From a candidate division WOR-3 bacterium (GTDB lineage Bacteria; Hydrothermota; Tepidihabitantia; SM23-42; JAOAFX01), in NCBI GenBank assembly GCA_039802205.1, contig JBDRWD010000022.1, forward strand, positions 1-34,548: DNA of 34,548 nt, in the 5' to 3' direction. The stretch's first letter is position 1, and each line of letters begins with the position of its first letter. This document shows, one piece after another, positions 19,778 to 25,188 of this stretch. The notes under the pieces were generated by a model. That model searched no databases, was not told where the DNA came from, and was given only the letters and a program-made list of their open reading frames with translations. Position numbers and translations under genes: made by a program.

Positions 19778-19805
19778 TTGACATAAGTTATAAAGTGTGT
19801 ATAAT
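19778..19805 (+). promoter_or_regulatory. Promoter of the attenuator-controlled operon
   Basis: Perfect -35 TTGACA (19778-19783), 16-base spacer, perfect -10 TATAAT (19800-19805). The ATG of the leader ORF at 19811 is six bases beyond the -10, so the leader peptide is predicted to be translated from a leaderless transcript. Confidence 0.9.
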
Positions 19806-19810
19806 CAGCC

Positions 19811-19885
19811 ATGCTTGGACTTTCCTGCCTTTCCCACCGGACAATGAGAGATAATAAGAATAAGGATCCGGGCTTTCTGCTTTGA
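19811..19885 (+). CDS. Putative attenuator leader peptide, Asn/Asp-rich
   Basis: A 24-codon ORF begins MLGLSC and ends RDNKNKDPGFLL before a TGA at 19883-19885. Six consecutive codons (19850-19867) read Asp-Asn-Lys-Asn-Lys-Asp. This suits ribosome stalling when charged tRNA-Asn or tRNA-Asp is scarce, just upstream of a gene resembling asparagine synthetase. Its last codons overlap strand 1 of an antiterminator hairpin (19870-19880), so a ribosome reaching the stop would mask that strand. It has no Shine-Dalgarno sequence; the promoter spacing predicts a leaderless start. An internal ATG at 19844 is an alternative start that keeps the control codons. Role inferred from geometry. Confidence 0.6.
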   Translation: MLGLSCLSHRTMRDNKNKDPGFLL

Positions 19886-19910
19886 TGATTATTGGAGAGG
19901 CAGAAAGCCC
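19870..19910 (+). promoter_or_regulatory. Antiterminator hairpin of the attenuator
   Basis: Strand 1 GGGCTTTCTGC (19870-19880) pairs perfectly over 11 bases with strand 2 GCAGAAAGCCC (19900-19910). Strand 2 also supplies AAAGCCC (19904-19910) to the terminator stem, so the two hairpins exclude each other. Confidence 0.75.
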
Positions 19911-19932
19911 ACCAATTTTGGTGGGCTTTTTT
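19904..19932 (+). terminator. Attenuator terminator hairpin
   Basis: AAAGCCCACCA (19904-19914) pairs with TGGTGGGCTTT (19919-19929) around a four-base loop, and a run of six T covers 19927-19932. It lies between the leader ORF and the ribosome binding site (AAAGGAGG, 19941-19948) of the first structural gene, so it would stop transcription before the operon unless strand 2 is captured by strand 1. Confidence 0.85.
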
Positions 19933-19952
19933 ATTTGATGAAAGGAGGCTTT

Positions 19953-20888
19953 ATGGAAGAAATGATTGATATAATGGGATTAGAGCGCACCATAAAATCT
20001 AGTCGCTTGCGGGCTATCTTGAGGATAGCCAGTGAAATACGATTCATAGCCGGCAAATTCCTTCGCGAGAAAGGATTTTTAGAAATTAATCCGGTAATAA
20101 TATCACCGCTAACTGATCCTCTGCGCCATCAGGTATTAGATGCTTCAATACATTACCTTGGAATGAAATACCAACTTACAAAAAGCATGATATTCCACAA
20201 ACAGATTGCGCTTCTAAGTGTGGATAAGATTTTCATTTTTTCACCGAATGTAAGGTTAGAACCACCGGAATATTCATCCACGGGTAACCACCTGATTGAA
20301 TTTACACAGATTGACCTTGAGATGAGGAATGCAACACGAGAAACAATGATGGAACTTGCTGAGGAGATGATAGTAGAAATTATCTCTCAGGTGGTGAAAA
20401 ATTGTTATAATGAATTGAGTGATTTAGGTAGGAATTTAAAGCTACCTACAGGACCGTTCAAAAGATACAGATACCTTGATTTATATAACCAATATGGTAA
20501 TAAGTTTGAGATGATAATCTCGCGGGCTTCAATCGAACCTTTTTGGGTGATTGACTTTCCGATAGAAGTAAGGGAGTTTTATGACCGAGAATATGAAGAT
20601 AAGCCAGGGATCCTATGTGATATGGATTTGATTTATCCCGAAGGCTATGGTGAAGCACTTTCCGGAGGTGAACGGGAGTTTAAATACGAGAGGATTGTGG
20701 AACGTATGAAAATTGCTGGCAACAATCCCGAAGATTTTAAATGGTATCTCGAATTTGTTAAAAAAGGACTGTTCCCATCTTGCGGGTTTGGCATCGGCTT
20801 AGAAAGGTTGACACGGTTTATATGCGGGCTTAACGATATTTCTGAGGCAACTCTATTCCCCAAAACGCCAGGTAGATGGAGCATCTAA
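19953..20888 (+). CDS. AsnRS-like truncated class-II synthetase (archaeal asparagine synthetase-related)
   Basis: A class-II aminoacyl-tRNA synthetase catalytic core without an anticodon-binding domain, 311 residues against about 430 for AsnRS. Motif 2 appears as IEFTQIDLEM (from about residue 115) and motif 3 as GFGIGLERLTRFI with Arg285. Other AspRS/AsnRS-like parts are FLEINPVIISPLTDP, YQLTKSMIFHKQ and FSPNVRLEPPE. Family knowledge: stand-alone paralogues of this kind in Pyrococcus make asparagine from aspartate by way of aspartyl-adenylate. This enzyme may do the same, or adenylate another acid for the pathway encoded downstream. The start at ATG 19953 follows AAAGGAGG; an ATG at 19938 would overlap that site. 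The next gene overlaps by 13 bases. Confidence 0.8.
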   Translation: MEEMIDIMGLERTIKSSRLRAILRIASEIRFIAGKFLREKGFLEINPVIISPLTDPLRHQVLDASIHYLGMKYQLTKSMIFHKQIALLSVDKIFIFSPNVRLEPPEYSSTGNHLIEFTQIDLEMRNATRETMMELAEEMIVEIISQVVKNCYNELSDLGRNLKLPTGPFKRYRYLDLYNQYGNKFEMIISRASIEPFWVIDFPIEVREFYDREYEDKPGILCDMDLIYPEGYGEALSGGEREFKYERIVERMKIAGNNPEDFKWYLEFVKKGLFPSCGFGIGLERLTRFICGLNDISEATLFPKTPGRWSI

Positions 20889-22612
20889 CAAGAGTGGAGG
20901 AGATGGTGGAGAAAAGTTTAAAATTAGAAAAAATTAAGCCCCGACAGGTAATTAAGGCACTTGAACTTGCACAAAAAGAGGGTGAAACAAATATTTACGG
21001 GATTGAGAAAGAATTTGCATTTATTAACGCCAAGAATCTTTATGCTGTGCAGAAGATCGGGAGACAATCTGCTTTCAAATTCGTAACAATGTATGGTGAT
21101 ATACCTTTTGAACTGCGAAGAAGAATAATGCCTGAGGTCTTTGATTATATGATAGAGGTGATTACTGAACCTGAGATCTCATACCGGCAGGCAGTTAATG
21201 AAATATTAATGGCTGAAGCTTATTTGTGGTTCGCATTGTCCCATATCCAGAATGAATTTCCGGCAATGGAAGAGATACTTTTGAGCAGCGGAACACTGTA
21301 TAAACCTGCAAAAATAGATACCGAAAGTATTCCTGAAGTCTGGGGAAAAGATAAAAAGGCGTATCTGGAGGAGATGGTTCGTCGTTACGGTGATAAACTC
21401 ACCCCTCAAGGTATGCACGGTAACATTTCCCTTCCCGAGCCCCTTATTGACTATCAATACCACCGCTCCGATATGAAAAAAGAACGGGGGAGCACCGGTT
21501 ATGTGGATTTCAAAAACGAAATCTACATCTGGCTTGCCGCCCGGCTCCGGGCATTTGCCAGTTTAATCATTGCCATTGAAGCTAATTCACCCTTCGATTA
21601 CATAATAGAAGATGATGCTGTTTATACGGTCCTCACTGGTTATCAATCTAATCGCTGGCGGCGTTTGCCGCAAATCGAAAGTACCAATCAACCATTCATG
21701 CTGCACAATTATACCCATTTTCAGAAACTTTCGTTGGAATTGATTGACAAAGGCGTGATTATTGGTGCCAACAATTATATGCCCATAAGACCAAAAGGAG
21801 AAAGGAGATTGGGTGAGGTTCCATTATCGTTGGAGCGGGCATGTTGGTTCCATGATATTGTCATTGATAGAGAAGAGCTGGAATCTGAGCCCGCGCTCCG
21901 TGCTTTACTGAAACTCGAAGATTTGACATTCATTGAAAAGTTACAAATTGCCGAAAGAACCGGATGGCTAAAAAAGAAAGGTTATACATTGAATGCCCTG
22001 ATAAGATTGTGGCAGAAGGATAATGTGCGCCGGCTGCTGGGTGTGCCGCTGAGCCGACTGGAGATACGGTGCGAGGAGTCAGGAGGCGATTATGAATTTG
22101 AACAGGGAAAAGCCGGTTTCATCTTTACCTTAGCCCTTTATCTCTTCGCGCATCCAGAATTCGCTTCTTCTTTCACCTACGACCGCAAAGACTTAAAAAG
22201 GTTGGAGTATAATGAAAAACAAGCAACCAAAGATGGCTTGAATTGTACAATAATACATCCCTGGACCGGTAAAAAGATGAAGATACGTGAGTTTCTTTCT
22301 TCCACCTTGAAAACTATTGATAATTTTGCCCGGGAGATTGGTACGTATGAAGACCTGAAGCCTCTTTATGAGTTAAGCAAAGGTCAGGAGAATGAAGCCG
22401 GGAAGAAAATAAATAGCGTGCTCAAGAGTCTGGGCCGAAATCCCCCACGGACAAAAAGCGGTCTGATCATCGTCCCGGATGAAATCATCAGAGATTACCT
22501 GAGGGCACGAAAGCGATATCTACTTGAAGAACTTTCGGAAAGATTGAATTGGGGGATTGCTGGGATGACAGAATACCCTCAGGAGATGACTTTTTTCAAA
22601 TCGTATAAATAA
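20876..22612 (+). CDS. Glutamate-cysteine-ligase-like (GCS2-type) carboxylate-amine ligase
   Basis: A 578-residue protein with features of the glutamate-cysteine ligase/YbdK superfamily, which activates a gamma-carboxylate with ATP and couples it to an amine. YGIEKEFAF (E44, E46) resembles the metal-binding GxExE start of the family. GMHGNISLPEP (H181), GYVDFKNEIYIWLAARLRAFASLIIAIEANSP, ANNYMPIRPKGERRLGEVP and RLEIRCEESGGDYEFE follow in an order like these ligases. It is longer than YbdK (about 370) and its amine substrate cannot be read. The GCS assignment is pattern recognition and should be tested by structure comparison. It overlaps the synthetase gene by 13 bases and is followed after 12 bases by the aminotransferase gene, so coordinated synthesis is likely. 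Confidence 0.55.
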   Translation: MEHLTRVEEMVEKSLKLEKIKPRQVIKALELAQKEGETNIYGIEKEFAFINAKNLYAVQKIGRQSAFKFVTMYGDIPFELRRRIMPEVFDYMIEVITEPEISYRQAVNEILMAEAYLWFALSHIQNEFPAMEEILLSSGTLYKPAKIDTESIPEVWGKDKKAYLEEMVRRYGDKLTPQGMHGNISLPEPLIDYQYHRSDMKKERGSTGYVDFKNEIYIWLAARLRAFASLIIAIEANSPFDYIIEDDAVYTVLTGYQSNRWRRLPQIESTNQPFMLHNYTHFQKLSLELIDKGVIIGANNYMPIRPKGERRLGEVPLSLERACWFHDIVIDREELESEPALRALLKLEDLTFIEKLQIAERTGWLKKKGYTLNALIRLWQKDNVRRLLGVPLSRLEIRCEESGGDYEFEQGKAGFIFTLALYLFAHPEFASSFTYDRKDLKRLEYNEKQATKDGLNCTIIHPWTGKKMKIREFLSSTLKTIDNFAREIGTYEDLKPLYELSKGQENEAGKKINSVLKSLGRNPPRTKSGLIIVPDEIIRDYLRARKRYLLEELSERLNWGIAGMTEYPQEMTFFKSYK

Positions 22613-22624
22613 AAGGAGGTGCTT

Positions 22625-24016
22625 ATGAAAAATTATGATGTCTGTTATCCGGGACAGGATGTGTCCCAGAGTTTGATCCCGCAATTTTTTGACAAAGCGG
22701 AAAACTGGGTCCCGATCGCAAAATATCCTCGGCGTGAAGTTTGGCCCTCAAAGATGTTTACAATAAAACAGGAGCTGGATGAGTTTATCAAAGATCATCC
22801 TACCGTTCCGGTCTATGATGCATCCCAGGGTGATGGTGGGATGAGTCTGGGGGGTATTCCAAAGCAGGAGATTGCCGAGGCATTATTAAGGTATCTGCCA
22901 GAAGAGCGTGCGACAAAATACGGTGAACCGAATGGAAGTTTAATATTGCGGAAAGCAATTTTTGAGAATTACTACCGATTTGACCTGGATACGGGTCTCA
23001 CTCCGGAGAATATTATCATCGGTGATGGAGGTCGTGATATCCTACAGAAGTGGTATCAGGCACTTTCTCAGGATTGTGGCGGTCATGGTGATTTCATCCT
23101 CGTGAGCGCTGCTCCTTGGGGCTCTTATCCTGAAGGTTCATATCTGAATGGTTTCAACATCGTATGTGCCCCAGGGAATCCGGATAATGCTTTTAAAATC
23201 ACTCCCGAAGGAATTGACCTCTCCATAGAATATGTCCAGAGGCATGCGAGAAGGATTGTGGGTATTATTATCACCAGCCCGGATAATCCTACGGGGAATT
23301 ATCTAAACGATAAAGAAATAGTAAATCTCATTGAACACGCTGTCGCCAGAGGAATCAATTATATCTTTGTGGACTTGATCTACCAGGCAGTGACGGACCC
23401 AGAGGTCGGTTGTTATGATGTGAATAGAATCTTTAAATCTTTGAGCCCCGAAGGCAAAAAGAAAGTTGTCTTTATGGATGGGTTGACCAAAATGGTAGGG
23501 GCATCAAATCTGCGAAATGCCCATCTGGTCTGTGGTTCAATTGAATTCGCTAAAAAATTAAAGGGAATTGCGACCCATACGGTCCTGCCCAATGTCGCCG
23601 GCGAGGCAGTTGCTTATGAGGTATATAGCCAAAAAAATCCGTTGATACATCCCTGGGTAAAAAGGATTGTAGAGCCTACCGCATTGAGCCGGGCGATAGT
23701 AAAGGAAAAACTGAAAGCGTTCAACTTTAAATTCATCTGTGACCAGGGTTACTATGCTTTCATCAATATCTATCCATGGCTCGGAAAAAGAATCCCCCAG
23801 GGAAAAGAGTTTTTCGATACGCACGGTCGCAAAATCGAAAAGATTGAAAATGTAGATATTTTAAAATCCTATCTTTCGGCAAGATGTGGCTTGGCGATAA
23901 TCCCGGGTTCAGTTTTCCGACAGCCCCATTTTATCCGTTTTTCTTATGCTAATGCTCCGGAATATACGCTGGGCGCAATAACCAGGTTAGAGCAGAGTTT
24001 AAGGGAGTTAGAATGA
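22625..24016 (+). CDS. PLP-dependent aminotransferase, fold type I (class I/II)
   Basis: A 463-residue aminotransferase-like protein. Recognisable parts are the YGEPNGSLILRKAI stretch near residue 100, GDGGRDILQKWY, SPDNPTGN with N221 (pyridoxal O3' contact), the FVDLIYQ region and the PLP Lys289 in MDGLTKMVGASNLRNAHL, where the Lys follows a Thr. The C-terminal RFSYAN has the carboxylate-binding Arg. An unusual N-terminus (about 50 residues, with FDKAENWVPIAKYPRREVWPSK) precedes the core. The substrate is unknown; decarboxylase or C-S lyase chemistry is possible in this fold. The start at ATG 22625 has an excellent site (AAAAGGAGG, 22611-22619). The stop overlaps the next start in ATGA. Confidence 0.82.
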   Translation: MKNYDVCYPGQDVSQSLIPQFFDKAENWVPIAKYPRREVWPSKMFTIKQELDEFIKDHPTVPVYDASQGDGGMSLGGIPKQEIAEALLRYLPEERATKYGEPNGSLILRKAIFENYYRFDLDTGLTPENIIIGDGGRDILQKWYQALSQDCGGHGDFILVSAAPWGSYPEGSYLNGFNIVCAPGNPDNAFKITPEGIDLSIEYVQRHARRIVGIIITSPDNPTGNYLNDKEIVNLIEHAVARGINYIFVDLIYQAVTDPEVGCYDVNRIFKSLSPEGKKKVVFMDGLTKMVGASNLRNAHLVCGSIEFAKKLKGIATHTVLPNVAGEAVAYEVYSQKNPLIHPWVKRIVEPTALSRAIVKEKLKAFNFKFICDQGYYAFINIYPWLGKRIPQGKEFFDTHGRKIEKIENVDILKSYLSARCGLAIIPGSVFRQPHFIRFSYANAPEYTLGAITRLEQSLRELE

Positions 24017-25188
24017 ATTATATATATGGGGAGCAAAAACAAAAGGAAATATTGAGCCTGGCAATGGAGTTGATAAAAATTCCCGCGATAAGTGTCGGGC
24101 GGTTTAAAAATCCAGAGGGAGTAGTGAAATGTTTTGAGTTTATCGTTGCATACCTGAAAAAGGCGGGTCTAAGGGTGATTGAGCTTAAAGATAAAGAATC
24201 AGTACCTGCATTATACTGCGACTTACAGACGCAAAAAGAATTGTCCGGGAGGATTCTTTTTGCGGGTCATTATGACCGTGTCTCACCGATTTCTGAGACA
24301 CAGATGGTGCCATTCATTGAAGGAGAATGGCTTAAAGCGCGCGGGGCAACCGATATGCTCTGCACGGTCGCCACCCTGATGGTGCTTTTTAAAGATTTGA
24401 AACTGGAGAACAAAAAGATAAATTGTGGACTGATCCTGGTGGGAAACGAAGAATCGGGCGAAACCGAAAGATGGGGAACACCGTTTATCCTTGAAGAATT
24501 ATATAAAACCACTAATTATCAACCGGATTTTGTGATTGTCGCAGAAAGAACCGGCGAAGGTGATGTCTGTCTGGGAAGATTGGAATATAAAAACCGGGGT
24601 CTCATCCGCATAAAGATTGTAGCATCAGGAAGTGCTGAACACACCGCCCAGTTAAAAGGTTTGACCGCGTTAGAAAGAATAATGGAATTCCGTAACCGGA
24701 TTTTTGAATATTTTTCAAGACCGTCCGAAAGCGAATGGAAGACTACTTTTACCTTCCCTTATTTTCTCTCCGGTGAAATCGGGAATTTCAATACCACCCC
24801 TACAGTTGCCTGGGCTGGATTGGAAGTTAGGCCGATTCCCGAAGAGAACATTGAGAAGATAATAACCCACATAACCGAACTCGGTAAACAATTTGATCTG
24901 TCGATAGAGTACATAAATAAAGAACCAGGAATAACGACCCCTCTTAAAAATTCTTTTCTCCAGTCTCTCCTGCAAATTCTTGCGACATTTGGTGGAGGTA
25001 AGATCGATGATTATCTGGGGAAGGGCAAAATTCATGCCACACAGGCGCGCTTTATAAAATCCCCAGTGGTAATCCTGGGTCAATCCGGGATTAATCCCCA
25101 TGGTGCCCATGAAGCCCATTATATCCCAAGTATCATGCCTTATTATCATCTCATGCGAGAATTTCTTTCTTTCTGTGGTTCTGCTTAA
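24013..25188 (+). CDS. M20-family metallohydrolase (peptidase or deacylase)
   Basis: A di-zinc M20 enzyme related to ArgE, DapE and carboxypeptidase G2, which cleaves amide bonds to release free amino acids or amines. Candidate ligands and catalysts are in order: H86 and D88 in AGHYD, D114 in RGATD, E146/E147 in NEESGE, E178 in AERTGEG, and His in GAHEAHYIP. The dimerisation domain lies at about residues 195-300. The 391-residue length is typical. It is coupled to the aminotransferase gene by an ATGA overlap and is the last gene of the operon. In this context it could remove a gamma-glutamyl or acyl group installed by the ligase, which is inference. No signal peptide. Confidence 0.88.
   Translation: MNYIYGEQKQKEILSLAMELIKIPAISVGRFKNPEGVVKCFEFIVAYLKKAGLRVIELKDKESVPALYCDLQTQKELSGRILFAGHYDRVSPISETQMVPFIEGEWLKARGATDMLCTVATLMVLFKDLKLENKKINCGLILVGNEESGETERWGTPFILEELYKTTNYQPDFVIVAERTGEGDVCLGRLEYKNRGLIRIKIVASGSAEHTAQLKGLTALERIMEFRNRIFEYFSRPSESEWKTTFTFPYFLSGEIGNFNTTPTVAWAGLEVRPIPEENIEKIITHITELGKQFDLSIEYINKEPGITTPLKNSFLQSLLQILATFGGGKIDDYLGKGKIHATQARFIKSPVVILGQSGINPHGAHEAHYIPSIMPYYHLMREFLSFCGSA

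Follow-up and report, generated by a model that had tools for sequence, protein, structure and literature searches.

A predicted leaderless leader-peptide attenuator with asparagine and lysine codons upstream of an uncharacterised operon in a candidate division WOR-3 bacterium

Genes and features of the locus

The window, i.e. the whole DNA stretch of 34,548 nucleotides analysed here, belongs to a candidate division WOR-3 bacterium (genome G000) and was compared with two sister genomes of the same genus (G001 and G002). The following features were found on its forward strand:

19778..19805, +, sigma-70-type promoter TTGACA-16-TATAAT (12/12 consensus match)
19811..19885, +, leader-peptide ORF MLGLSCLSHRTMRDNKNKDPGFLL followed by a stop codon (AUG at the inferred +1; in-frame orthologues in G001 and G002)
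19850..19864, +, putative control codons Asp-Asn-Lys-Asn-Lys (GAT AAT AAG AAT AAG), identical in three species
19870..19880, +, strand 1 (A), 5' arm of the antiterminator inside the ORF, pairing with 19900-19910
19900..19914, +, strand 2 (B), common to antiterminator (19900-19910) and terminator (19902-19914)
19902..19933, +, intrinsic terminator predicted from sequence, 13-bp stem (19902-19931) and T-run; terminator core recurrent in the genus
19942..19948, +, Shine-Dalgarno sequence AAGGAGG of the first structural gene, recognized by sequence
19953..20888, +, predicted archaeal-type asparagine synthetase A (AsnRS-derived), 311 aa (NCBIfam NF005054)
20876..22612, +, GCS2-like carboxylate-amine ligase, 578 aa (Pfam GCS2, 2.2e-6)
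22619..24016, +, class I/II aminotransferase, 465 aa (Pfam Aminotran_1_2, 3.5e-25; 78-79% identical in the sister genomes)
24013..25188, +, M20 peptidase/deacylase (DapE/ArgE-like), 391 aa (Pfam Peptidase_M20, 6.2e-13; 66-68% identical in the sister genomes)

An earlier note on this DNA had described the promoter as perfect, and the -35 box (TTGACA, 19778-19783) and the -10 box (TATAAT, 19800-19805), separated by a 16-bp spacer, agree with the consensus at all 12 positions. The ORF of 24 codons announced there is present as well, extending from the ATG at 19811 to the TGA at 19883-19885 and encoding MLGLSCLSHRTMRDNKNKDPGFLL, and the codons for Asp-Asn-Lys-Asn-Lys-Asp were found at 19850-19867 as GAT AAT AAG AAT AAG GAT. 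At local codon frequencies, six consecutive Asp/Asn/Lys codons have a chance of about 2e-5 per position.

The first structural gene is predicted to encode an archaeal-type asparagine synthetase A. Its product reaches 386.6 bits with NCBIfam NF005054 over the full length (equivalog cut-off 309) and matches the Pyrococcus AS-AR structures 3p8t and 1nnh over nearly the full length (E ~1e-54). The nearest relatives (48-58% identical) are found in Thermoplasmata, relatives of Mesoaciditoga, Caldiserica and Aminicenantes, and none of 80 loci encoding asnA relatives carries ligase, aminotransferase and M20 genes nearby. The archaeal-type gene is absent from the operon in both sister genomes, in which the leader directly precedes the operon for ligase, aminotransferase and M20 hydrolase, with the ligase gene in first position. 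This distribution suggests that the gene was acquired by transfer into the window species. The assumption of an operon headed by a paralogue related to asparagine synthetase is thus correct for the window species and does not apply to the sister genomes; as these carry the leader without the gene, the leader is not tied to it.

Orthologues of the ligase are 76-78% identical in the sister genomes; a search of 147 genomes of the phylum found none outside this genus. A plasmid search gave no match, no solved structure proved to be a convincing relative, and the AlphaFold model of the ligase, based on a three-sequence alignment, has a mean pLDDT of 39. The best NCBIfam match of the M20 protein, PRK08651, is far below the cut-off. 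An order of acylation, transamination and deacylation is known from acyl-DAP or LysW chemistry, and one might speculate from the enzyme classes that the operon performs such a sequence.

Probable leaderless translation start

The -10 box and its distance to the ATG are kept in G001 and G002. In all three species the AUG is located about 6 nt past TATAAT, with five intervening bases in the window and in G002 and six in G001, a spacing which suggests that the leader ORF is leaderless. A count of the pattern TTGAC...TATAAT with an ATG 5-7 nt past TATAAT, covering the genus and its sister genus, gave 126, 124, 98 and 108 promoters for G000 to G003, compared to 0-1 for the reversed pattern (126 versus 0 in the window genome). 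Judged by these numbers, leaderless initiation looks common in both genera.

Conservation of the leader in the genus

The leader DNA was found in G001 and G002 at 83-85% identity. No match was obtained in the other 58 relatives searched, and the ligase gene of the operon is absent from them, too. The core peptide RDNKNK, the stop codon and both hairpins are kept in the window genome, G001 and G002, and the leader alignment contains a nearly unchanged core, ATGAGAGATAATAAGAATAAGGRTCCGGGCTTTCTGCTTT. The orthologous leader peptides are MELRLISSSSHHIMRDNKNKGPGFLLL in G001 and MMNILRSFHQTMRDNKNKDPGFLLS in G002, each followed by a stop codon. The first 11-13 codons have diverged in amino acids, yet stay in frame: the sole length change in the 5' part of the ORF amounts to 6 nt and keeps the frame of the +1 AUG, and the distance from this AUG to the ATG of the core is 33 nt in the window, 39 nt in G001 and 33 nt in G002. 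The sample comprises three orthologues of the window leader, and the genomes are drafts.

The earlier note had looked to an alignment across related genomes for conserved control codons and covarying hairpins, and had regarded homologous operons lacking ORF and hairpins as evidence against attenuation. Both sister operons carry the ORF and both hairpins; the control codons are conserved apart from the last Asp, and the antiterminator helix covaries (see below).

Antiterminator and terminator

Strand A (GGGCTTTCTGC, 19870-19880) and strand B (GCAGAAAGCCC, 19900-19910) form 11 perfect pairs, precisely the antiterminator that had been proposed. Up to the end of strand 2, the antiterminator fold comprises 14 pairs (-24.7 kcal/mol). 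The terminator, previously given as 11 bp at 19904-19932 with a T run, was found in slightly longer form (13 pairs, 19902-19931, -20 kcal/mol, followed by the T-run). The segment 19902-19910 lies in both hairpins, which makes strand 2 a shared strand as described. The geometry proposed for ribosome control is also present, with the last codon of the Asp/Asn/Lys run ending 2 nt before strand A and the stop codon at the 3' end of this strand.

When the upstream segment of the window leader was subjected to dinucleotide shuffling, pairing with the middle strand as good as the native one was obtained in 3 of 1000 cases; for seven related leaders the corresponding numbers were 1, 0, 9, 0, 0, 0 and 5 per 1000. 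The antiterminator pairing is above chance in all eight leaders. Furthermore, the whole window leader folds at z = -3.1 relative to shuffles. Formed before the 3' arm of the terminator exists, the antiterminator has -19.7 to -26.7 kcal/mol across the eight leaders and the isolated terminator -17.0 to -20.2 kcal/mol, being the weaker structure in every one of them; therefore, the masking of strand A decides. The full untranslated leader folds into the terminator in the window and into the antiterminator in other species.

All eight leaders have their stop codon at the 3' end of strand A. In the A:B helix of these leaders, six cells are changed on both sides, 90% of the cells are paired (40-61% in slid controls), and the covariation score was reached by one of 500 shuffles. 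Since the alignment is small and includes paralogues, this apparent covariation is support rather than proof.

A pentanucleotide, CCACC (19835-19839), is kept in the three species, while the surrounding 5' part of the ORF has diverged. It might pair with GGTGG in the 3' arm of the terminator; the attenuation model gives it no part.

Paralogous leaders of lysA and leu

In a census covering 100 of the 126 strict leaderless promoters of the window genome, combined with a search for the terminator pattern, exactly three short ORFs followed by terminators were found: the window leader, a lysA leader and a leu leader. The lysA-lysC-ddh genes (contig C26 of G000) are preceded by a putative leaderless leader with Lys codons, MMKLFKRFWMKKGYKGVGLLFP, and the leu operon by one with Leu, Val and Ile codons, MQKYFIEIAICKIVLVILIALRRLGLMAV. 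In the sister-genome orthologues, the core is MKKxxKG for the lysA leader and LVILIA for the leu leader. The Lys-codon leader is kept before lysA in three species (loci L254/L238, L253 and L249); for lysine operons, L-box riboswitches are the more familiar form of control. The terminator core CCCACC-N-GGTGGGCTTTTT occurs eight times in the genus (3, 3 and 2 copies per genome); one further copy among 100 genomes lies at an unrelated site that has no leader. As the codons of the lysA and leu leaders match the pathways behind them in two independent cases, they calibrate the reading of the window leader.

Proposed mechanism of control

The region 19778-19952 very probably acts as a transcription attenuator of the trp/his/leu type, controlled by a ribosome that translates a leaderless leader ORF. 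Attenuation as such is well supported as a prediction by the orthologues and by the two paralogous leaders with operon-matching codons. The anatomy of the leader, its conservation, the competing helices with their energies and the match of codons and pathway in both paralogous leaders can be read directly from the DNA; the course of events would be the following. RNA polymerase would initiate with the A of the AUG at 19811 or with an adjacent base, and a ribosome would start translation on this 5'-terminal AUG. With charged tRNA-Asn and tRNA-Lys in plentiful supply, the ribosome is expected to reach the UGA at 19883 and to cover strand A (19870-19880), whereupon strand B would pair with the 3' arm of the terminator and transcription would stop before the structural genes. 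When Asn and/or Lys (possibly Asp) run short, the ribosome would stall at 19850-19861 and leave strand A free; pairing of A with B would then prevent formation of the terminator, and the operon would be transcribed.

Two mechanisms in which the ORF is not the sensor were considered. According to the first, the purine-rich AATAAG repeat is an RNA site for a TRAP- or HutP-like protein controlling the terminator, and the ORF is incidental. Conservation of GATAATAAGAATAAG at the nucleotide level, wobble positions included, is in line with such a site, but the frame of the ORF, the AUG at or near +1 and the stop codon at the end of strand A are kept in all eight leaders, and the paralogous leaders carry pathway-matching codons at the same offsets without having the AATAAG repeat. 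A protein-binding site is therefore very unlikely. The second, control of the terminator by a T-box or a metabolite riboswitch, would suit an amino acid-related operon with a leader terminator. However, the region from transcription start to terminator is taken up by the ORF, a T-box sequence is not visible, and Rfam families stay below threshold in the leader; in a search of the whole window with Rfam covariance models, only rRNA and tRNA reached the threshold, and no riboswitch or T-box did. This mechanism can hardly be credited at all.

Control codons and the sensed amino acid

With ribosome-mediated attenuation as the preferred reading, the question is which amino acid is sensed. In the window leader, the distances from codon end to strand A are 17 nt for Asp, 14 for Asn, 11 for Lys, 8 for Asn, 5 for Lys and 2 for Asp; the offsets amount to ~14 and 11 nt for Lys in the lysA leader of G000 and to ~13-28 nt for Leu/Ile/Val in the leu leader, all of these values being approximate, as the chosen start of strand A shifts them by one to three. 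As far as these distances go, a lack of any of the three amino acids could serve as the signal. The last Asp codon (GAT, 19865-19867) is replaced by GGT (Gly) in G001 and is thus dispensable. Asn and Lys codons alternate and, unlike in classical leaders, no single amino acid dominates. Since the Lys codons equal the Asn codons in number, conservation and placement, the sensed amino acid would be Asn, Lys or both, with about equal odds for Asn and Lys. The earlier note had proposed shortage of charged tRNA-Asn (or Asp) as the signal; while attenuation itself is upheld, Asn is not singled out, given the equally conserved and placed Lys codons, and Asp appears weaker in view of the Gly codon in G001.

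The effective signal may be asparagine, with stalling at AAT 19853 or 19859, although we place this somewhat short of probable. The two Asn codons, at offsets of 14 and 8 nt from strand A, do not vary among the three species, and the operon of the window species begins with the asparagine synthetase gene, whose product scores above the NCBIfam cut-off. AsnRS was confirmed in G000 and G001, and neither GatB nor a full-length AsnB was found in the three genomes, so that the cells depend on synthesis or uptake of free Asn. On the other hand, the Asn codons match an operon gene (asnA) in the window species only, the sister genomes having the same leader without the archaeal-type gene, and the Lys codons are conserved equally. 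Moreover, a bacterial AsnA (PF03590) is encoded elsewhere in all three genomes, in the window species without an attenuator. The operon as the only asparagine route of the genus was rejected because of this AsnA.

Lysine is a comparable candidate, which we likewise rate as a serious possibility below even chance. The ribosome would then stall at AAG 19856 or 19862, as for the leader of lysA-lysC-ddh, and the operon would belong to a lysine- or DAP-related pathway. The 11-nt offset is occupied by a Lys codon in the window leader and by a conserved one in the lysA leader. Both Lys positions of the window-type leaders in the three species, and the two control positions of all lysA leaders, have AAG, the less frequent Lys codon (35%). 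The combination of an aminotransferase and a DapE/ArgE-like M20 enzyme resembles acyl-DAP chemistry, and DapF is present in G000 and G001. Against lysine, the proteins of the operon are far below every DAP-pathway cut-off, and a DAP role of the operon is weakened because diaminopimelate dehydrogenase, an enzyme that bypasses the acyl route, is encoded beside lysA in the window genome, with a like ORF at the same place in G001. A replacement of DapD/DapC/DapE by the core of ligase, aminotransferase and M20 enzyme was considered and is weakened by the same neighbourhood of ddh and lysA.

A third interpretation is a dual-input attenuator, in which the alternating codons would make a single leader respond to a shortage of either of these two aspartate-family amino acids and switch on the undescribed ligase/aminotransferase/M20 pathway; in one species, the archaeal-type asparagine synthetase gene would have been inserted behind a switch that was already there. 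We put this forward tentatively, as the full combination is rather unlikely.

Comparison with known attenuators

The window leader shares with the trp, his, leu, ilv, thr and phe attenuators of E. coli an ORF that carries control codons, an antiterminator and a T-tailed terminator that use a common strand and exclude each other, and a strand 1 overlapping the end of the ORF and its stop codon. It differs from them in the apparently leaderless start, a three-strand instead of a four-strand layout, mixed Asn/Lys (and Asp) control codons and the uncharacterised operon. Whereas the earlier note had thought a leaderless leader ORF unfamiliar among attenuators, precedents exist in Streptomyces, Sinorhizobium and mycobacteria. 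In Streptomyces lividans, the leaderless leader peptides LeuL, TrpL and IlvL are accompanied by terminators (PMC8079986), and the trpL ORF of Sinorhizobium starts at the 5' end of the RNA (PMC7298713). These leaders, several of them with T-tailed terminators, have the ORF at the transcript 5' end in common with the window leader, which belongs to another group of organisms, involves other amino acids and has a perfect sigma-70 consensus promoter. According to Canestrari et al. (2020; cited in PMC9031893), leaderless polycysteine short ORFs of mycobacteria act as attenuators; there, as proposed here, sensing of a single amino acid by such an ORF attenuates the downstream operon. Seliverstov et al. 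(PMC1262725) detected no conserved terminator hairpin upstream of the mycobacterial cys operons, in contrast to the conserved intrinsic terminator and antiterminator of the window leader.

Both classical leader-peptide attenuation and the leaderless feature are already known. New are the host group, the mix of Asn and Lys codons, the Lys-codon leader on lysA and the uncharacterised operon; a limited literature search of titles and abstracts yielded no Asn-type or Lys-type leader-peptide attenuators. Classical translation-coupled attenuation apparently operates on leaderless mRNAs in this little-studied group of bacteria. The conserved codons are a handle on an operon that homology leaves unexplained, and would tie a genus-specific ligase/aminotransferase/M20 pathway to the supply of asparagine or lysine. 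Compared with Pyrococcus AS-AR (3p8t), to which the 311-aa product is similar over nearly its full length, the window gene differs in its setting, as an additional gene at the head of a bacterial operon with a putative attenuator. If the window species has indeed captured this archaeal-type gene behind a switch with Asn codons, which the sister species possess without the gene, it would be a compact case of a gene coming under ready-made control.

The closest counterparts are the predicted lysA and leu attenuators of the genus itself, which share with the window leader the leaderless ORF, the core CCCACC...GGTGGGCTTTTT and similar offsets between codons and antiterminator. Unlike the window leader, they have control codons of one amino acid group and match a known pathway. 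The leu operon carries two putative attenuators in series (contig C42 of the window genome, L123 7780-8330; L255). The second element comprises an ORF of 88-92 codons with its own Shine-Dalgarno sequence, ending in SSLVVIILILSMGLSWL / SLSVVIILILLGGLSWL; behind it, directly before leuA, the window genome has a second terminator.
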